Positions 14,434 through 28,100 of a stretch of DNA of 64,000 bases are shown here, in pieces. Origin of the DNA: Skeletonema tropicum (lineage: Eukaryota; Bacillariophyta; Thalassiosirophyceae; Thalassiosirales; Thalassiosiraceae). Each line of letters begins with the position of its first letter. Position 1 is the first letter of the stretch. Under the pieces are notes generated by a model. It was not told the origin of the DNA, searched no databases, and saw nothing but the letters and a program-made list of their open reading frames with translations. A program made the position numbers and the translations under genes. The stretch covers positions 434,001 to 498,000 of the forward strand of contig CM074142.1 of NCBI GenBank assembly GCA_037178625.1, given 5' to 3'.

Positions 14434-14820
14434 ATGACAAAAGATTCAAAGTCTCTTCTCTCTACAAATATGAAGAGAAAGGCAATGGAAGATCATGTGG
14501 CAGAGAGCTTTACTGTTGATAACAAAAAGAGAAATGAAAGAATAAGAAAGGCCAAAGCAAGGGCTAAAATGTCTGAAGAGGAACGTCAAGCAGGAAGAGA
14601 CAAGGACGCTGCTGCAAAGAGGGTTCGTTGGGTAAGTATGACTGAAGAGGAACGTCAAGCAGGAAGAGACAAGGGCGCTGCTGCAAAGAACGGAACAGGA
14701 AGAGAAATTTTCTCCGAATTATCAACGAATTGCCTCCTCTCTTTCGTCACAACACCAGTTACAGAACTCATCCTTTTCAACCTTACTAATATTTCGTCAC
14801 ATCACTATCTACTAGGATAG
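14434..14820 (+). CDS. Basic repeat protein fragment with two STPR-like ~22-residue units
   Basis: From ATG 14434 the frame gives ~128 residues. A basic region (KKRNERIRKAKARAK) leads into two near-identical units, MSEEERQAGRDKDAAAKRVRW and VSMTEEERQAGRDKGAAAK. Such Arg/Lys/Glu units of ~23 residues resemble the STPR DNA-binding repeats found before helicases and transposon proteins in several protist and animal lineages. The second unit breaks off abruptly and the tail is unlike it, followed at once by repeat B, so this looks like the 5' remnant of a larger gene. An in-frame extension upstream (from 14245) is hydrophobic and probably not translated. Confidence 0.4.
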   Translation: MTKDSKSLLSTNMKRKAMEDHVAESFTVDNKKRNERIRKAKARAKMSEEERQAGRDKDAAAKRVRWVSMTEEERQAGRDKGAAAKNGTGREIFSELSTNCLLSFVTTPVTELILFNLTNISSHHYLLG

Positions 14821-15075: not shown

Positions 15076-15457
15076 TGACAGCTCCTGACAGATGATATGT
15101 ATTGTTTCATGAGAATAAGGGGACAAAAGGGACCTTGACGGGTGAAGTACAGACATCTTCATAAAGGGGAGACAAAACCAGGAGGGAGCCCAACCCACCA
15201 CGAACCCTACTGAAAAACCCACACAACATAATGCAGGAAAAGGGCTCCCACCAATAACCCTACTGAAATACCCACACGCATAATGCAGGAAAAGATTGGA
15301 ATGAAAGTCAATATCGATCAATATTATATCAAACGGAACGAACAAATTCACATATATTATATTAAACTAAATATTCTTGCTTCCTCTTCTTCTGTTGGGG
15401 TTCTACCGGTGCATTGTTTGTCTTTTTCGCCTTACGCTTCTTGCCACCCTTCAACAA

Positions 15458-16744
15458 TCATCTATCCACCATTTTGTTGTAGCATGTTCTCCAACTGTTC
15501 TGCTCCCTACGACTTTTTGCCGCGCTCTTTGCTCCGTGCTTCCCTTGCGTTACGAGGTACGGATCTAAAAGAGGCCAAACTTTCGAGTACAGCGTCGCCA
15601 CCTTGCTACCATCCCACTTACCATCCGACGGCCAAGCATCCACTGTCATTCCAAAGTGCTTTACCTTCTCCATTACTTTACCCATCTTCGAGATGTCCCT
15701 CTTTCCATTTTTAACGTGTTCGATGAAATTATTGTTAGCGTGGAGGAGTCGATACGGTGGTATGTTGTTCTTTTTATCCCCAAGAAACCACTTGGTGATC
15801 AATCCGTTCATGTTCATCTGGGGAAAAGTAAAATCTGGAGGAGGAGGAGTCAAAATGCCTTCAGAACTCACCCCCATCGACCACTTCCGCTGCTGAAGCA
15901 TCTCCTCTCTTCGCTTCTTTGCAAGCGCCTCTTTGACCAACGGGGTGACCGCAGCCTTATCCACACCATCCAACGTAGGTTCCTCTGCTGCAATGTCGTA
16001 TTCTACCACTAAATCATCAACATCATTGTCTTCTTCCTCGTCGTCGTCGTCGAAGGGACGGCGGGTCCTACCACTGGGGCGCTCATAAATGTTTCCAGCT
16101 TTCTCTAGTAGCGCATCCAGCTTCTCCATGATGATGGTTGATTGCGTAAAGTTTGTTCCTCCAACATTTCTTGAATCTAGCTGATTTACTAAGATGTCTT
16201 TGAATGATTCCTTGAGATCCTCTTTCATCTTGGCTAGCTCTTCCTTCAAGCTCTGCACCTTTACCAACAAAGCAACATCTGGAGGTATACCAGTAAGCTC
16301 TGGCGTGTCATCTGTCTTGTTCCAAGGATACTTTGTTGTCACACAATCAGCGAATGGAACATCCTCGATCCAGAAAATGCTTGTGCGCAGTGGACAATTT
16401 GAATGCATTGAGTCAAGGTTCCCCTTCTTCTTGTGATACACAAGCGATGCAATGCATGCCTTAAACAGTAAAAATACAGCCTCATTTGAGCGTGCCTCCA
16501 CGGGCATACGAGCCTTAATCCAAGCATTTACAGCAGCATGCCGGGCGGCATATTCTGCTCCGTCAAAGTCACTGAAATCGAAGTATGGCTGTGACTCCGC
16601 AAAACCAACACCCAGTCTATCCCTACCACAAACCACCTTTCCAACGTGTTCATCACCAGCATCGGCAATCTTGATGTAGCGGTTCAACATGCCGGGCGAA
16701 GTCCAACTAGCACGAAGACAAATTGAGGAAATAGGTGGTGCCAC
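15458..16744 (-). CDS. Tyrosine recombinase C-terminal fragment, array unit 1
   Basis: A 428-codon frame that begins at GTG, not ATG. Its start, APPISSICLRASWTSPG then NRYIKIADAGDEHVGKVV, matches the end of Crypton/DIRS tyrosine-recombinase domains, with the catalytic Tyr expected in NRYIK. Directly upstream the frame reads KGGATHCATG, the end of the H-x-x-R-KGGATH box, but a TAA replaces the Arg codon and the rest of the box is missing. Beyond the recombinase end lie a helical region (FLLFKACIASLVYH, CPLRTSIFW), a coiled coil (~165-190), an acidic run (DDDDEEEDNDVDD) and a Trp-rich C-terminal domain that may bind DNA. Catalytic Arg and His are absent, so this copy cannot recombine by itself. 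Confidence 0.7.
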   Translation of the reverse strand: MAPPISSICLRASWTSPGMLNRYIKIADAGDEHVGKVVCGRDRLGVGFAESQPYFDFSDFDGAEYAARHAAVNAWIKARMPVEARSNEAVFLLFKACIASLVYHKKKGNLDSMHSNCPLRTSIFWIEDVPFADCVTTKYPWNKTDDTPELTGIPPDVALLVKVQSLKEELAKMKEDLKESFKDILVNQLDSRNVGGTNFTQSTIIMEKLDALLEKAGNIYERPSGRTRRPFDDDDEEEDNDVDDLVVEYDIAAEEPTLDGVDKAAVTPLVKEALAKKRREEMLQQRKWSMGVSSEGILTPPPPDFTFPQMNMNGLITKWFLGDKKNNIPPYRLLHANNNFIEHVKNGKRDISKMGKVMEKVKHFGMTVDAWPSDGKWDGSKVATLYSKVWPLLDPYLVTQGKHGAKSAAKSRREQNSWRTCYNKMVDR

Positions 16745-17039
16745 AATGCACCCTGTTGCACAATGTGTGGCGCCCCCCTTTTACTAGCAGTAGTAGGCAT
16801 GATGGCTGGGGAGTGTAATTTCTAATGCGGCGGCGACGGCTTGGTCTACTTATTCTCTCACTGTTTTTTGTTCTGCTGCGGCGCTGCGGCGGGGGAGAGG
16901 AAGGATAAGAAGGGGAGGTGTTTTGGCATTTAGCATGCACGTTACGTTTGGAACTCGTACACGAGTGCGTAGAAAATCAGGGGACAAAGTTGAACTCAAA
17001 ACCAAAACTGCGCTGGCATAGAAACGCGAGCCTAACAAA

Positions 17040-19230
17040 TTTACCGTCGGGCATCCTCGCGTGTTTATGATCTGTCGGGCGTCATTGTGGGTTCCCCCCT
17101 TTTTCGACTGTTTTTGTGGGTTTTCGTGGGCAATCGCTAGATGATCGCTAGAACGAAAAGGGTGCAGCCTGCCCCTACATGATGGACCGAGTCCGAACTT
17201 GCGCCGAGTAATGAGCAACCTCGTCCTTCCTATGATGTAATAGTGCCATGTGTGTGCGCAAGTTGGGAAGCCTTTGTAAGCAAGCTATTGATTAATCAAT
17301 TTCAAGTCATCTAGATTTACATGTGTGAAGTCAGACATGAGATGTGTTGTTCTTAAAATAATGGTGTATTCATGTATTTACACCCTTTTCACTTTCCCAT
17401 TTCGTTTTGCTTTTCCCTTCGGCTTTTCCCAAGCTTTGTTTGCAGGACGAAATACTTACCATCATTGTTATCAAGCCGTGTTGCCCCTGTCCTTGGGCGA
17501 AGATTGCTGCCATGTGTCTGTGTCGTCGTTCAATGATATATGTACAACAGTAGCATAGATTTCGTCCAAGCAATGTTTACCATCGAGTTTATTGCATCCT
17601 TCCTCCTTGATAGCTTTCAACAGTTGGTTGAAATAAATAACAGTCTTTTGTTCACCCCTTGCTGCCCAAACGTATATTGTCCCGCAGATTCAAGACACTT
17701 GTTTAGTGCATGCATCAAGTAGTTGATCTCATCCTCTATTAGCCTTTACCAAAGCTGCTCGTACATTGTGACCAGAAACACCGCCGCCGGCATCTCCATC
17801 TCCAGTAATTGCGGTCACTCTGAAACCGTATAGTCCAGAGAACTCCTCAAGCGACTTCTTGACTGCGTCCAGTGCATAACCATTAGCGCCATAAGCACTT
17901 GTGTCCACACCAAGACAATGTAATTTAGTTGTCTTCTTTAGTCTTTTTCTCACCTCCAAACCAGCTCAAACTAAAATATTGACGAGTGTTCAAGCCCTGC
18001 TCGTTTGCCATAACCAGTGATTAGGTTAAAATGCTTTGCCCCCTCATCCATGATTTCTTACAAGACAATAATCATGCAATCAGCCGCAAGACTAGCCTCT
18101 TTTCGATTATGAGTCCTCCTAGATGGGCATCCCTTGACAATATTAGATACATCAATATCTTTAATGTCAAGCTCATGCAACAGCGCTTTCGTCCAGCCAA
18201 CAATAATCATCTCAGTTGCTCGTCCGATGCACCGTATCGTGAGTTGATCACAGCCGCAATGTGGAGTGCACCCTTACCGAACGTTGATTCTTCTGCACCA
18301 AACAGTGCTTGAAGGTTGTGATTATTGTCATGTGAACAACTTTCCTTTCTCAATTGATGTTTTTTTGCTACGGAAGTTGCTCCCTAGGGTAGAAAGAACT
18401 GGGTCACACCATAATTATGTCTCTCGGAAACCTTGCCTCGGCGTGTCTCGCTGCAATCGTACCCATCGCCGCAGTCCATAAGAAGTAACCCATCCTGAAT
18501 GTCATTATCCAACACACATGCCACCTACCCGCTCTTCCATCCAACATGTAATAAAGACGTCCTATTTCGGTCAAAGGGTTGCCTACCCGCTCATCATTCG
18601 ATTCGAACTGTCCGGCAGAAGTAATACATGGTGGTTTTGGAGGCCTGCGCCCTTCATAACGAAGTAGGTGTGTGTGTCGCTGTCCACATCCCCTCATAGG
18701 GGTGGTAGGGTGGTGGTGTCGTTTGATTTTTTGGAGGCATTACATAATTCTCCTGTTGTCACATGAATCCCCTCATCATCCAGACTTGCTGCTATATTGC
18801 ACATCACGGCGAGCTTGTCGATGGTAAATAACTGGTTTAGGGCGTCATTATGATCCAGCATATGGACGATTGCTGCTCGGAGTGGTGCGTGGACTTCAGA
18901 TAAACGCCATGGCACGATGTTGTGAGAGATGTATCAATTTAGATGGCGATTTAACCACACAAAAACAAGGAAACCAGTCCGCAGCCAATAATACAAAATC
19001 TAAGGCTTCCCAACTTGCGCACGAGGCAGTTTCTGAACTAGTAGGGATAGTAGGGCATGGCGGAACACCATTTTTCGGAATTGCACCATGGTGTGGTGGT
19101 GGGGCACCTCAACGCACATGTGTGTCAAATAGTTAGCGATTACCTAGCTATGAAAAAGGGGGCGACAGGGGGCAAACAAAGGACGCAGGCCCGCTAGATC
19201 ATAAACACGCGAGGATGCCCGACGGTAAAA
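17040..19230. mobile_element. TIR DNA transposon of unclear superfamily inside array unit 1
   Basis: The ends are inverted repeats: TACCGTCGGGCATCCTCGCG at ~17041 and its complement ending at ~19229, extending ~34 bp. Units 2 and 3 give the empty site CTAACAAATTGCGCG. Comparison yields a target duplication of AAATT (5 bp) with TACCG ends, or AAT (3 bp) with TTACCG ends. A second inverted pair, GGCTTCCCAACTTGCGCAC, lies further in (about 17258 and 19006). Inside are decayed coding pieces on the minus strand. The duplication rules out hAT (8 bp) and Mutator (9 bp). Confidence 0.8.
17729..18697 (-). pseudogene. Decayed transposase-like gene of the 17040-19230 element
   Basis: Pieces in all three minus frames line up as one protein: IAARHAEARFPRDIIMV, then FGAEESTFGKGALHIAAVIN, WTKALLHELDIKDIDVSNIV, LHCLGVDTSAYGANGYALD and FRVTAITGDGDAGGG, ending before MHALNKCLESAGQYTFG around 17700. 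An Asp in a beta-strand context followed by GDGDAGGG and a His-containing helix suggests a DDE/D nuclease. At least four stops or shifts interrupt it. I cannot place it in a named superfamily. Confidence 0.4.
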
Positions 19231-19705
19231 TTGCGCGTGATCATCCAAACTAAAACACATTTATTTTGAGAAAAAAGGCCAGTTTGTCCCCCTATTTGTA
19301 AAAACGCCCAGGAAACTGCCCATGTTGTCCCCTAAATCTGGGCTAAGTATTGTTTCATGAGAATAAGGGGACAAAAGGGACCTTGACGGGTGAAGTACAG
19401 ACATCTTCATAAAGGGGAGACAAAACCAGGAGGGAGCCCAACCCACCACGAACCCTACTGAAAAACCCACACAACATAATGCAGGAAAAGGGCTCCCACC
19501 AATAACCCTACTGAAATACCCACACGCATAATGCAGGAAAAGATTGGAATGAAAGTCAATATCGATCAATATTATATCAAACGGAACGAACAAATTCACA
19601 TATATTATATTAAACTAAATATTCTTGCTTCCTCTTCTTCTGTTGGGGTTCTACCGGTGCATTGTTTGTCTTTTTCGCCTTACGCTTCTTGCCACCCTTC
19701 AACAA

Positions 19706-20992
19706 TCATCTATCCACCATTTTGTTGTAGCATGTTCTCCAACTGTTCTGCTCCCTACGACTTTTTGCCGCGCTCTTTGCTCCGTGCTTCCCTTGCGTTA
19801 CGAGGTACGGATCTAAAAGAGGCCAAACTTTCGAGTACAGCGTCGCCACCTTGCTACCATCCCACTTACCATCCGACGGCCAAGCATCCACTGTCATTCC
19901 AAAGTGCTTTACCTTCTCCATTACTTTACCCATCTTCGAGATGTCCCTCTTTCCATTTTTAACGTGTTCGATGAAATTATTGTTAGCGTGGAGGAGTCGA
20001 TACGGTGGTATGTTGTTCTTTTTATCCCCAAGAAACCACTTGGTGATCAATCCGTTCATGTTCATCTGGGGAAAAGTAAAATCTGGAGGAGGAGGAGTCA
20101 AAATGCCTTCAGAACTCACCCCCATCGACCACTTCCGCTGCTGAAGCATCTCCTCTCTTCGCTTCTTTGCAAGCGCCTCTTTGACCAACGGGGTGACCGC
20201 AGCCTTATCCACACCATCCAACGTAGGTTCCTCTGCTGCAATGTCGTATTCTACCACTAAATCATCAACATCATTGTCTTCTTCCTCGTCGTCGTCGTCG
20301 AAGGGACGGCGGGTCCTACCACTGGGGCGCTCATAAATGTTTCCAGCTTTCTCTAGTAGCGCATCCAGCTTCTCCATGATGATGGTTGATTGCGTAAAGT
20401 TTGTTCCTCCAACATTTCTTGAATCTAGCTGATTTACTAAGATGTCTTTGAATGATTCCTTGAGATCCTCTTTCATCTTGGCTAGCTCTTCCTTCAAGCT
20501 CTGCACCTTTACCAACAAAGCAACATCTGGAGGTATACCAGTAAGCTCTGGCGTGTCATCTGTCTTGTTCCAAGGATACTTTGTTGTCACACAATCAGCG
20601 AATGGAACATCCTCGATCCAGAAAATGCTTGTGCGCAGTGGACAATTTGAATGCATTGAGTCAAGGTTCCCCTTCTTCTTGTGATACACAAGCGATGCAA
20701 TGCATGCCTTAAACAGTAAAAATACAGCCTCATTTGAGCGTGCCTCCACGGGCATACGAGCCTTAATCCAAGCATTTACAGCAGCATGCCGGGCGGCATA
20801 TTCTGCTCCGTCAAAGTCACTGAAATCGAAGTATGGCTGTGACTCCGCAAAACCAACACCCAGTCTATCCCTACCACAAACCACCTTTCCAACGTGTTCA
20901 TCACCAGCATCGGCAATCTTGATGTAGCGGTTCAACATGCCGGGCGAAGTCCAACTAGCACGAAGACAAATTGAGGAAATAGGTGGTGCCAC
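19706..20992 (-). CDS. Tyrosine recombinase C-terminal fragment, array unit 2
   Basis: Identical in protein sequence to the unit 1 ORF: same GTG-type opening, same TAA in place of the Arg of the R-KGGATH box, same acidic and Trp-rich tail. The shared defect shows it predates the amplification. Spacing to the unit 3 ORF is 2058 bp. Confidence 0.7.
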   Translation of the reverse strand: MAPPISSICLRASWTSPGMLNRYIKIADAGDEHVGKVVCGRDRLGVGFAESQPYFDFSDFDGAEYAARHAAVNAWIKARMPVEARSNEAVFLLFKACIASLVYHKKKGNLDSMHSNCPLRTSIFWIEDVPFADCVTTKYPWNKTDDTPELTGIPPDVALLVKVQSLKEELAKMKEDLKESFKDILVNQLDSRNVGGTNFTQSTIIMEKLDALLEKAGNIYERPSGRTRRPFDDDDEEEDNDVDDLVVEYDIAAEEPTLDGVDKAAVTPLVKEALAKKRREEMLQQRKWSMGVSSEGILTPPPPDFTFPQMNMNGLITKWFLGDKKNNIPPYRLLHANNNFIEHVKNGKRDISKMGKVMEKVKHFGMTVDAWPSDGKWDGSKVATLYSKVWPLLDPYLVTQGKHGAKSAAKSRREQNSWRTCYNKMVDR

Positions 20993-21763
20993 AATGCACC
21001 CTGTTGCACAATGTGTGGCGCCCCCCTTTTACTAGCAGTAGTAGGCATGATGGCTGGGGAGTGTAATTTCTAATGCGGCGGCGACGGCTTGGTCTACTTA
21101 TTCTCTCACTGTTTTTTGTTCTGCTGCGGCGCTGCGGCGGGGGAGAGGAAGGATGAAGAAGGGGAGGTGTTTTGGCATTTAGCATGCACGTTACGTTTGG
21201 AACTCGTACACGAGTGCGTAGAAAATCAGGGGACAAAGTTGAACTCAAAACCAAAACTGCGCTGGCATAGAAACGCGAGCCTAACAAATTGCGCGTGATC
21301 ATCCAAACTAAAACACATTTATTTTGAGAAAAAAGGCCAGTTTGTCCCCCTATTTGTAAAAACGCCCAGGAAACTGCCCATGTTGTCCCCTAAATCTGGG
21401 CTAAGTATTGTTTCATGAGAATAAGGGGACAAAAGGGACCTTGACGGGTGAAGTACAGACATCTTCATAAAGGGGAGACAAAACCAGGAGGGAGCCCAAC
21501 CCACCACGAACCCTACTGAAAAACCCACACAACATAATGCAGGAAAAGGGCTCCCACCAATAACCCTACTGAAATACCCACACGCATAATGCAGGAAAAG
21601 ATTGGAATGAAAGTCAATATCGATCAATATTATATCAAACGGAACGAACAAATTCACATATATTATATTAAACTAAATATTCTTGCTTCCTCTTCTTCTG
21701 TTGGGGTTCTACCGGTGCATTGTTTGTCTTTTTCGCCTTACGCTTCTTGCCACCCTTCAACAA

Positions 21764-23050
21764 TCATCTATCCACCATTTTGTTGTAGCATGTTCTCCAA
21801 CTGTTCTGCTCCCTACGACTTTTTGCCGCGCTCTTTGCTCCGTGCTTCCCTTGCGTTACGAGGTACGGATCTAAAAGAGGCCAAACTTTCGAGTACAGCG
21901 TCGCCACCTTGCTACCATCCCACTTACCATCCGACGGCCAAGCATCCACTGTCATTCCAAAGTGCTTTACCTTCTCCATTACTTTACCCATCTTCGAGAT
22001 GTCCCTCTTTCCATTTTTAACGTGTTCGATGAAATTATTGTTAGCGTGGAGGAGTCGATACGGTGGTATGTTGTTCTTTTTATCCCCAAGAAACCACTTG
22101 GTGATCAATCCGTTCATGTTCATCTGGGGAAAAGTAAAATCTGGAGGAGGAGGAGTCAAAATGCCTTCAGAACTCACCCCCATCGACCACTTCCGCTGCT
22201 GAAGCATCTCCTCTCTTCGCTTCTTTGCAAGCGCCTCTTTGACCAACGGGGTGACCGCAGCCTTATCCACACCATCCAACGTAGGTTCCTCTGCTGCAAT
22301 GTCGTATTCTACCACTAAATCATCAACATCATTGTCTTCTTCCTCGTCGTCGTCGTCGAAGGGACGGCGGGTCCTACCACTGGGGCGCTCATAAATGTTT
22401 CCAGCTTTCTCTAGTAGCGCATCCAGCTTCTCCATGATGATGGTTGATTGCGTAAAGTTTGTTCCTCCAACATTTCTTGAATCTAGCTGATTTACTAAGA
22501 TGTCTTTGAATGATTCCTTGAGATCCTCTTTCATCTTGGCTAGCTCTTCCTTCAAGCTCTGCACCTTTACCAACAAAGCAACATCTGGAGGTATACCAGT
22601 AAGCTCTGGCGTGTCATCTGTCTTGTTCCAAGGATACTTTGTTGTCACACAATCAGCGAATGGAACATCCTCGATCCAGAAAATGCTTGTGCGCAGTGGA
22701 CAATTTGAATGCATTGAGTCAAGGTTCCCCTTCTTCTTGTGATACACAAGCGATGCAATGCATGCCTTAAACAGTAAAAATACAGCCTCATTTGAGCGTG
22801 CCTCCACGGGCATACGAGCCTTAATCCAAGCATTTACAGCAGCATGCCGGGCGGCATATTCTGCTCCGTCAAAGTCACTGAAATCGAAGTATGGCTGTGA
22901 CTCCGCAAAACCAACACCCAGTCTATCCCTACCACAAACCACCTTTCCAACGTGTTCATCACCAGCATCGGCAATCTTGATGTAGCGGTTCAACATGCCG
23001 GGCGAAGTCCAACTAGCACGAAGACAAATTGAGGAAATAGGTGGTGCCAC
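21764..23050 (-). CDS. Tyrosine recombinase C-terminal fragment, array unit 3
   Basis: Third identical 428-codon copy. The unit closes with its terminal 118-bp stretch, then stops at GGGCTAAGTA and passes directly into MITE A sequence at 23466. Confidence 0.7.
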   Translation of the reverse strand: MAPPISSICLRASWTSPGMLNRYIKIADAGDEHVGKVVCGRDRLGVGFAESQPYFDFSDFDGAEYAARHAAVNAWIKARMPVEARSNEAVFLLFKACIASLVYHKKKGNLDSMHSNCPLRTSIFWIEDVPFADCVTTKYPWNKTDDTPELTGIPPDVALLVKVQSLKEELAKMKEDLKESFKDILVNQLDSRNVGGTNFTQSTIIMEKLDALLEKAGNIYERPSGRTRRPFDDDDEEEDNDVDDLVVEYDIAAEEPTLDGVDKAAVTPLVKEALAKKRREEMLQQRKWSMGVSSEGILTPPPPDFTFPQMNMNGLITKWFLGDKKNNIPPYRLLHANNNFIEHVKNGKRDISKMGKVMEKVKHFGMTVDAWPSDGKWDGSKVATLYSKVWPLLDPYLVTQGKHGAKSAAKSRREQNSWRTCYNKMVDR

Positions 23051-23465
23051 AATGCACCCTGTTGCACAATGTGTGGCGCCCCCCTTTTACTAGCAGTAGT
23101 AGGCATGATGGCTGGGGAGTGTAATTTCTAATGCGGCGGCGACGGCTTGGTCTACTTATTCTCTCACTGTTTTTTGTTCTGCTGCGGCGCTGCGGCGGGG
23201 GAGAGGAAGGATGAAGAAGGGGAGGTGTTTTGGCATTTAGCATGCACGTTACGTTTGGAACTCGTACACGAGTGCGTAGAAAATCAGGGGACAAAGTTGA
23301 ACTCAAAACCAAAACTGCGCTGGCATAGAAACGCGAGCCTAACAAATTGCGCGTGATCATCCAAACTAAAACACATTTATTTTGAGAAAAAAGGCCAGTT
23401 TGTCCCCCTATTTGTAAAAACGCCCAGGAAACTGCCCATGTTGTCCCCTAAATCTGGGCTAAGTA

Positions 23466-23556
23466 GACACAATCAATATCGTAGTAGATAGCCGGTGCCT
23501 CCTCTCTTATTTAGAAAACCCGCGCAGCGGCTAGACGAGCGTCAGCGAGGCTAGTG
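23466..23556. repeat. MITE A right end plus one arm of the 1113-1352 inverted repeat
   Basis: Nearly identical to 1067-1154: GACACAATCAATATCGTAGT, then CCTCCTCTCTTATTTAG, then CGCAGCGGCTAGACGAGCG. It is cut on the left by the tandem array, which gives the array's target sequence. Confidence 0.7.
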
Positions 23557-23939
23557 AAGATGATAGACGCAAAATAAAGGAATAGAAACGCAACTCGCAA
23601 CAGCCCCATCCCTATAGTCCCAACCGTTCATTTGAGATTCGCATATAAAGAGGGCTGGAGGGCGTGCGCACAAGAGGGACTGGTTTGTATTCGTGGATAT
23701 TGACCGAATTGTTTATCTCATATTCATTTTCACCTGATTTTCCACAGTTGTTAGCCCCACGGGGGCATCGCCCACAAAAAGGATGACCATGACTTTAGCA
23801 ATTCACCCTCACCTCACTCACAACCACTTTGCAGGGTGGCAATCAACGACCGCACTATCATAAGTAGATGATATAATATCATCCGCTTGCTGCAAGAGAG
23901 ATCAGCGGCTATTGCACAACCCTAATCTAATCAATCTAC
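23557..23939 (+). promoter_or_regulatory. Probable promoter and 5' leader of the ACBD6-like gene
   Basis: A 383-bp spacer with a TATA-like GCATATAAAGAGG at 23641 about 300 bp before the first ATG. A stretch ending CCACTTTGCAG|GG near 23830 could be an intron acceptor in the leader. No other feature is visible. Confidence 0.3.
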
Positions 23940-25159: not shown

Positions 25160-28100
25160 CTACTTCCAAGGAACGTGCTGTTCAATGTCGACACTGACAA
25201 GAAGCCTAGCGAATGCAAAAGAACCATGCTGAGAATTACGGTCATAGAATTGGACGGAACGAAGTCCTCGCCTCAGGCATCTAACAGGAATAGCAGTGCG
25301 ACAAATCTTATCATCTATAAAGCCTTCATCAGCATGAACTACTGTGAATAGCAACATGGCAACACCGGCATTTTCAACTTTGAATGTAAAGTCTTTTGCG
25401 TCAGGCCACTGTGGACAAAAGCCATTGTCTGAAACAGTAGTTTTTCTCTCTTCAATTGTTGGCGTTTGTGTTGTTGTTCTTACATCATACAGACGTACGA
25501 TTACGTACGGAGATGTCACTTCTCCACCTCCAAATGGGTGCGGCAAGCACGACCCTGCCAAGATTCTTATTCTCAAGTTCAGTACACCAGGAAATTCTTC
25601 TAGCCTTTTCGGTATGTAGCCGCATCCGCCATTTTCGCGGAACCGTCCATCATTGATTGCCATTTCGGAGTCGTCCGTTTGATGATTAAGTGCCACCATT
25701 TGACATCCTTCTGACCAGTGAAGGAGTGGGTTGAAATTAGATGAATCTACTCTTGTGCCACTTGGATAGGTTCTTGTCATATGCTTTCTATTGTACCTCT
25801 TCCAAAGGGTTGCATTTACTTCGTTCTGATTGAGTATTCTGAGAAACTTGTTTTCACTGAACGAAATCATTTCTGTTGCTGGCAGTGTGTCCACCGATGA
25901 GAATTCCGTAAATGTTACTGTGTTGAACGTAGTAATCTCTGCAAGTTCTGGCGCAATATTGATATTTGTAGGAGTATCTAGTGCATCTTTGGAAAACACA
26001 ATTCGGTTTCCATTCTTCCGTGGACTCTTCAGCGGACTTGCAAAAGATGCCCGATCGCTGAGTGCTCTATGACTATTCAATTCTGAAGAAATTTTCGTTG
26101 GCTCAGATAAGACGTCATCCGTTCCCATCGTTCGACCTTTAAGGAGCACCTTTCCAGCTAGTTCTCTTGGAGAAGGTAATTTGTCTAAAGTGGACATTGG
26201 ATAATATAACATTTCTCCCAGTTCCTCTTTGAGAATGATTGCCATTATCTCCTGAAATGGTATGGAGCAATTGTTGTCCAATGAAAGTATGATAGGAAGC
26301 GTTTTGGTGTTGCTGGTAATGTAGTTCTTCACCACTTTGATGATGTCGCGAAAATCGATCTTGGAAGTGGCAGTAAAGCCATGATAGACGACAACAACTC
26401 CAGCTGTCCTATCGCCATCAAAACAATCCAATTCCAGGCACTTGCAACCTCTCTGCAAAGCAATTGAATAAGCCTCGAGACTGCTTTTGCTGCTCAATTG
26501 ATCTCCCGTAAGATATGTATTGTGGCTACTGTTGATATAGTATTCCGATAGACTCTTGCTAAGGCCGTGTTCGTCAAATTGTTGCAATGCTGGATCAAAG
26601 AGATCGTTTTCAGAACTAAAAAGGTATTCTCCAAAGCTCGTCCTATCAAACAATGTTTCGCCGTCTTCACTCTTGCCGTAGAAGCGGATAATATTCTTTG
26701 CTTCATCCAACGTTGCATCGTTGCAGCCTTGTTTTTCAACAAGAAAGGATTGTAAAAAATCTATTGCGGTTACGCTTTCCCTGCCTACTCCAAACAGCTG
26801 GTCAAAAATAAGATCACATGCTTGCTTTCCATCGTTTTGCTCTGACTTGATCCGTTGGAAAAGTTCTATACATTCATGGAAGTTTATACCACAATGATCA
26901 CGATGTCCATTATTACCTCTGTTCAACCTCATTTCTAACTTCTTGCTCCCACGCCTGATTAGTTGCCGTAGACTATGCCGCTCTTCTCGCTCAGGGTGGA
27001 GTTCTGCACAATAATCTCGATACATCTTTCTTGCCTTTTCTTTTTTTTATATATACATTGATTCTGCGCAACAACCTCAAGAACCCGGCCAGATCAATCA
27101 GTCCACTTCTCCCTCGATCAACATCAAACCAAGCATATCTCACTAAGTTTTGCTCCCTTGTAACATCAGGCTTGGTCGATGCTTTGTAATATGCATCTCT
27201 GATCATTTGAATGGAAGATACAAGTGCATTTCGATCTTGATCATCTTCCACAATGAAATCGATAGTCTCCTGTTTGCCATAGAATATCGATACAACTTTT
27301 GTCGGGTCCACTTTCTCACCACGATATGCCAGCGCTGCAGCCGCTTCCAACTTGCGACTGCCAATAAACCCACTCTGCACAAAGAGTATGTCTGCAATAT
27401 CAATCACGTGTATATGTAATCAGTTTCTTCGACCTCGCCGATCGAATGTTTGTGGTATCTCGAAAAGGTGTGGAGTTGTCGGCAGCAACGCATTTGGTAC
27501 TTTTGGAAGATGATCTCATGCTGGGGCGAGCGGCGTTAGCCTTAGAGTCGCGATTATTTGCCTCGGTCTTTTCTTTCTTGGCCAGTCGTCTCGCTACTTC
27601 CGCCTCCACCTTCTCATCAACGAGAGCCTCACTGAGGAGAGCGAGAGCCTCTTGTGTCGCGAACTGATTTTCCAACAAGTTTATGATGCGTTCCTGGTTA
27701 CGCTCAGATCTTATTTGACCGTCAATTGTTTGGTTGTAGTGCTTCGATTGACACTCTGCCACGGTAGAGAGGGTTTCGTTTATTCGATCCAGGGATAATG
27801 GCATGTGCTGAAGAATTAAATTTTCAAGCTCATGATCTGATGATTCCTTTCCACGGAAAGAAGATATCACTTCTTCTCTCGTCACTTCAGAGAGCTCATC
27901 AGAAAAATTGACTGGGACTGCTATTGTTGTACAATCCTTCTCGGCAACAGACTCTTCCAACAGAGACATTTCGTCATCTAGGAATGCCAGTCTAGCAGTT
28001 GACAACGTAACGTCGGCGGCTTCATGACGCTTTGATTTGGAGGTGGAACTTTCGAGAGATGACATGGAGACAAGTAGAGACATGGCATCGAACTTGTCTT

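Follow-up and report, generated by a model that had tools for sequence, protein, structure and literature searches.

Three copies of a mobile element in the window

The window analysed here, a stretch of 64,000 nucleotides from the diatom Skeletonema tropicum (contig CM074142.1, C16 in the following, positions 434001-498000), contains a head-to-tail array of three copies of an element with a period of 2058 bp, each carrying a fragment of a tyrosine recombinase (YR) gene. If the element is taken to run from TATTG to GGGCTAAG, its copies start at 15100, 19348 and 21406 and occupy 15100..19347, 19348..21405 (2058 bp) and 21406..23463 (2058 bp) of the plus strand. No difference exists between units 2 and 3, whereas unit 1 departs from them by a 1-bp deletion and by an inserted transposon of 2,186 bp, and measures 2057 bp without the insert and the insert's duplication. 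The perfect tandem trimer of the original prediction was thus right in copy number and period, but not for unit 1. Both end-to-end junctions, AAATCTGGGCTAAG joined to TATTGTTTCATGAG, consist of the same 28 bases and lie at 19334..19361 (C16:453334-453361) and 21392..21419 (C16:455392-455419) on the plus strand. TAAGTA had been proposed for the joins and the right edge of the array; the inner junctions carry TAAG and the right edge is TAAGTA (23460-23465), but the left edge reads TATGTA. The left core TATG (15096..15099, plus strand) is read as the host's, since empty sites on C10 and C75 show a host-derived left core. The host flank on the right (23464..23563, plus strand) is the initial part, roughly 100 bp, of a dispersed repeat which supplied the target site. 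The earlier claim of a MITE here is supported as far as a dispersed repeat is concerned, with 38 other places matching from the base before the core (40 of 247 candidates scored).

The transposon in unit 1 (17042..19227, plus strand) has perfect terminal inverted repeats of 32 bp and is flanked by a 5-bp duplication, AAATT, at 17037-17041 and 19228-19232. The only frame of at least 120 codons touching it has 122 codons. As it is confined to unit 1, it was inserted after the array had formed, or the other units grew without it.

Each unit contains a minus-strand frame of 428 codons (15458..16744, 19706..20992 and 21764..23050), and the three frames are identical to each other, as predicted. The catalytic motif of the YR superfamily is R...HxxR...(H/W)...Y. 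In the window units W and the nucleophile Y are kept, whereas R172, H286 and R289 are lost and the sequence resumes after R289; the predicted loss of the Arg/His box beside a retained nucleophile therefore proved correct. A 428-residue product is unlikely to be expressed, because the frame starts with GTG, is preceded by TAG TAA, and the ATG conserved in full-length copies enters another frame with a stop at codon 39. A functional reading based on an expressed protein of this length was rejected on these grounds. A 99% identical 428-residue protein (P0001, 26 member sequences) occurs in other public assemblies. Its longest contig has 2313 bp, that is 2058 + 255, and, speculatively, could stem from a circle or a tandem having been assembled.

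Full-length relatives, element ends and target sites

Our genome searches covered one assembly of 78.4 Mb in 125 contigs and detected the full-length relatives that the original prediction had suggested looking for. Among 56 matches, only two, on C18 and C20, include the missing block with R, H and R at high identity; the rest are distant or cover the retained part only. The two full-length copies are about 3.16 kb long, and the 2058-bp type lacks 1118 bp of them. Their single long gene encodes a YR and is interrupted by stops (codons are numbered from the ATG indicated by the homologues P0013 and P0014). In the full-length protein R289, W315 and Y324 are invariant and R172 and H286 are present in at least 90% of 46 sequences. 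Its modelled structure is predicted to have a tyrosine recombinase fold near Flp, Cre and Ndc10, the last being Crypton-derived (PMC3212892). Pfam and PDB sequence searches with the unit and with the full-length protein or profile gave no believable match, and scans of viral contigs for relatives and for the junction found none. Those of the homologues that are named come from Discostella, from Fragilaria and from an entry given as 'Extub...'.

The unit is dispersed in the genome with at least 60 matches in a DNA search. Of the matches listed, 33 extend over 1,671 bp or more, 32 at 98-100% identity and one at 96%. When three mismatches were allowed, the right end (22 bases) was found at 37 places (reversed control: 0); 34 of these ends are exact, and the others have TAAA (C3:4666801 and C8:950161) or TATC (C3:213921). 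Both flanks were tabulated for 20 loci, a table that leaves out truncated loci and those with a flank missing (C17, C8, several loci on C3, the C16:74 fragment, C23 and C4:1514 among them) as well as the three right-end exceptions. The right core was TAAG in 20 out of 20 loci. At the 15 loci with an intact left end, the left core was TATG (7), TAAG (4), or AGTG, ATAT, AATG and TACA (1 each). Single-copy insertions, which had been proposed as a further search target, do exist at TA[A/T]G sites, and the target consensus of the table is roughly ATAWG-TANNYWYA (here and below the hyphen marks the point of joining). In one copy, at C3:207-214 kb (L041), the left core is TAAG and the right core TATC, the only reverse case met; the C3:694 copy, which shares its left flank, appears to end in TAAG at C3:688825. 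In L043, L044, L042, L045 and L046, which are the full-length copies and three others, the left end is 5-13 bp shorter than in the 2058-bp type, and the base at which it starts differs between copies.

Four paralogous empty sites could be read (C10, C75, C51 and C4), three of them clearly; C4 and its paralogue differ by a few bases and are not clear. The empty site AAAGC TATG TACTC corresponds on C10 to TATG-TATTG at the left and TAAG-TACTC at the right of the element, and GGGAA TATG GAAAC on C75 to TATG-TATTG and TAAG-GAAAC. The C51 site is TAAG-TGCC when empty and has TAAG on both sides when filled. At the three clear sites one element was added after TA[T/A]G, with no target-site duplication. 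If the place of cutting is constant, C75 would exclude any overlap longer than roughly one base. These sites are paralogues and not alleles, so that the real targets may have differed. Joined-flank searches at C7, C12 and C14b, with 40 candidates scored for each, gave no match spanning the join. The element has no terminal inverted repeats but short direct repeats at its ends (TA[T/A]G and TAAG), in line with Cryptons, which lack terminal inverted repeats and have direct end repeats of 4-6 bp. The only inverted motifs near the ends are short copies of GGGGACAA. This motif is found four times per unit, at about 24, 1886, 1998 and 2041 (e.g. 19367, 21229, 21341 and 21383), in opposite orientation near the two unit ends, and its copies are possible candidates for recombinase binding sites. 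GGGGACAAA occurs nine times in the window, always inside the array, against 0.53 expected.

Origin and growth of the arrays

The 28-base junction was found eight times in the genome, without a mismatch although three were allowed, at five loci: three times on C10, twice on C16, and once each on C7, C14 and C23 (reversed control: 0). Variants were compared among 21 complete units from 11 loci; complete units on C17, C8 and C3:3743 and the C23 array, which belongs to another subfamily, were outside this set, and seven partial or full-length alignment rows outside the pair counts were used to judge whether variants were private. All 11 within-array pairs had no substitution outside the 4-bp core (indels not counted). 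Pairs from different loci differed by a median of 12 substitutions (range 0-20), with 1 out of 193 pairs at zero. Private substitutions shared by the units of an array numbered 3 on C16, 4 on C10, 6 on C7 and 7 on C14. On the strength of these sequence variants, each of the four arrays is shown to have grown from one resident copy instead of collecting separate circles. The idea of repeated circle integration at the element's own junction survives as far as the joining of its own ends is concerned. A tree also groups the units by array, with most inner branches weak (2 of 16 starred, 11 open). The arrays on C16, C10 and C7 begin on the left with the core TATG but have TAAG at their inner junctions, as expected if the first unit retains the host core.

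A second, distant family, whose protein is 31-32% identical to that of the unit, likewise has copies joined exactly at their ends. It carries a YR gene, including an uninterrupted frame of 883 codons (L054), and has a derivative of 2068-2071 bp without residues 266-626, a deletion different from that of the first family. Its core TACTT(A) is the complement of (T)AAGTA. Exact junctions were found at two loci, two on C7 and one on C3, where the second unit is cut short (reversed control: 0); one further match, which has 2 mismatches, represents the edge of the single full-length copy. A third family of about 1.6 kb is represented by L048 (C23), L049 (C21), L050 (C12) and L051 (C4), and the C23 junction lies in it. 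Identity with the unit is 91-94% at the right end (across 190-250 bp), only 65-67% in the body, and about 81-82% in the 130 bp at the left where these were aligned separately. By this pattern it looks like a chimera having taken over the unit's ends.

We consider it likely, with a probability of roughly three in four, that the unit is a non-autonomous, CryptonS-like deletion derivative which stacks on its own ends by means of a YR supplied in trans. Such an enzyme would recombine TAAG-TA at the element end with host TA[T/A]G-TA sites. An inserted copy has such a core at both edges, and the enzyme would therefore also join one copy's end to the other end of a sister. An exact dimer could arise by excision and re-integration of a circle, or from a direct exchange of left end and right end between sister chromatids or homologues; judged by sequence, both routes fit the arrays alike. 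Later YR rounds, or ordinary unequal exchange between identical 2-kb units, could then lengthen the array. The deletion makes amplification in trans, as originally proposed, a requirement, yet the source of the enzyme is a weak point of that proposal.

Several observations weigh against this explanation. Both full-length copies have TAA at codon 91, that on C18 also TAG at codon 530, and no intact YR of the same family was found in the assembly. No circle was observed. The 1-bp deletion of C16 unit 1 is present at other loci as well, and the full-length and three other copies are without the first 5-13 bp of the left end; both facts are unexplained. For the window's own site no empty paralogue was found, the joined-flank searches having given no spanning match with 40 candidates scored each time. 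Unit counts rest on one assembly, and with 8 variable columns the second family offers too few variants for a test of one-copy ancestry of its arrays.

An ordinary segmental tandem duplication would account for array edges that have only TA.GTA in common: replication slippage, or end joining, at a microhomology of 4-6 bp would have made three copies out of a 2-kb stretch, irrespective of mobility. It is very improbable in view of the identical element-end junction at five loci and in a second family, a recurrence by which chance or slippage as the origin of the junction was also rejected. Seemingly ordinary exchange is seen on C11 and C75, but there the element lies inside a 2.8-kb satellite that is repeated with it and flanks the copies on both sides. 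Two intervals on C11 have a period of 4,883 bp; on C75 one interval measures 4,885 bp and another 10.4 kb. Six pairs within the satellite locus, not among the 11 within-array pairs, differ by 0 or 1. These satellite loci illustrate how ordinary unequal exchange would look in this genome.

More serious, but in our opinion still unlikely, is that every array goes back to a single insertion, either of a multimeric circle or of an array copied from elsewhere, with gene conversion homogenising it afterwards. Integration of a multimer in a single step yields the same edges, and the tree joins the arrays of C7, with 2 units, and C10, with 4, as sister groups (96/89), so one of them may descend from an array transferred whole. 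However, units of C7 and C10 differ by 9 substitutions while those within each array are identical except for the core and a 7-bp duplication. The latter is present in C10 units 1-3 and absent from unit 4, so that change continued past the first dimer. Least probable of all is a Helitron-like, single-strand rolling-circle element inserting end-to-end concatemers with the YR fragment as a passenger. Points in its favour are the lack of a target-site duplication, the fixed position of the crossover and a short inverted repeat, GCCCA...TGGGC, directly inside the TAAG end. On the other hand, the sole long frame of the full-length element is the YR, no Rep or helicase family was found in its protein (Helitrons in the genome were not searched for), the element's own end agrees with the target TA[A/T]G, as expected for site-specific recombination, and the second family with the same core also has a YR gene.

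Textbook YR recombination leaves an overlap of 6-8 bp. With a standard overlap and random segregation, a host core on the left with TAAG on the right should be about as frequent as the reverse. In our table the former arrangement was found 11 times and the latter never, the single reverse candidate (C3:207-214 kb) lying outside it. Measured against this textbook chemistry, the fixed position of the crossover speaks for an asymmetric exchange or for repair with a constant bias. That Crypton integration itself is asymmetric, at the fixed bond TA[T/A]G-T with the host core left, the element core right and no overlap footprint, is a tentative idea which we would rather doubt. If true, it would mean a one-strand exchange resolved by replication, integron-like, in a eukaryotic transposon, and defective elements would have an inherent means of amplification in copies that re-insert next to themselves.

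Outside the array, the window showed just one 16-base match to the unit (E 0.096). Left of the array, at 14569-14689, two near-identical 52-bp pieces are separated by 69 bp. A minus-strand frame of 621 codons at 25160-27025 has, judging from its motif, a resemblance to a phosphoinositide phospholipase C.

Relation to known elements

The original prediction had left the choice between a Crypton and a DIRS-type element. DIRS retroelements encode a reverse transcriptase; they were rejected here, since the full-length copies of 3.16 kb have one long frame, the YR gene, and the Pfam scan of its protein revealed no reverse transcriptase family. DDE cut-and-paste transposons leave identical target-site duplications on both sides, and were rejected by TATG on the left and TAAG on the right of the C10 and C75 copies, whose empty paralogues have TATG. 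The family is of the Crypton kind and probably CryptonS, the unit being a non-autonomous, internally deleted member.

CryptonS elements of oomycetes and a diatom likewise combine a YR gene, short direct end repeats and stramenopile hosts (Kojima and Jurka 2011, PMC3212892). They have direct repeats of 5 or 6 bp and mostly TATGG termini, a majority and not all of them (PMC3212892). The unit's core is TA[T/A]GTA and not TATGG. Some encode a C48 peptidase, and the GCR1_C domain is absent (PMC3212892). Likewise, C48 was found in some homologues of our element (P0015 and P0020 by scan, P0017 by its listing), though not in the element itself, and GCR1_C was absent from 13 proteins scanned. Apart from the core, our family differs from the described CryptonS in the excess of the deleted derivative over full-length copies and in its exact tandem arrays, on which the consulted part of PMC3212892 is silent. 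Deletion derivatives outnumbering autonomous copies are also known from the non-autonomous Cryptons of Rhodnius and medaka, for which the consulted part of PMC3212892 describes no arrays; in those of Rhodnius, unlike ours, no terminal repeats were found. In the text available of that paper 'tandem' appears once, in the title of a P element reference, and in that of PMC4157794 nowhere. The open-licence PMC literature searched contained no report of tandem Crypton arrays, which is no proof of absence. In this literature we did not meet an array-forming, non-autonomous life style of the Crypton kind, and the fixed crossover without an overlap footprint is a possible surprise.

A circular route was proposed for Cryptons by analogy with bacterial elements, and the available part of PMC3212892 holds no data on circles or strand exchange. 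The mechanism becomes testable in S. tropicum, whose genome combines recent copies and empty sites at paralogues with a pair of parallel families and with arrays whose steps are ordered. Circles, the crossover point, trans-mobilisation and array growth are all measurable here. Our findings suggest a route to higher copy number for a YR element of the cut-and-paste kind, which would not replicate as it moves, and also how transposons may seed tandem repeats.

Tandem arrays of the SXT/R391 elements are made by a YR. These are large, self-transmissible bacterial elements, unrelated to the unit beyond the enzyme superfamily. Like our units, they can be arranged in tandem within a single chromosome, at an attachment site common to them (PMC2791158). 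Regarding the integron cassettes, a folded attC-like site is an integron feature not demonstrated for the unit, but the asymmetric YR exchange by which cassettes are inserted, and which has to be resolved by replication, would give one fixed crossover, as observed here (PMC4792948, PMC2727003).

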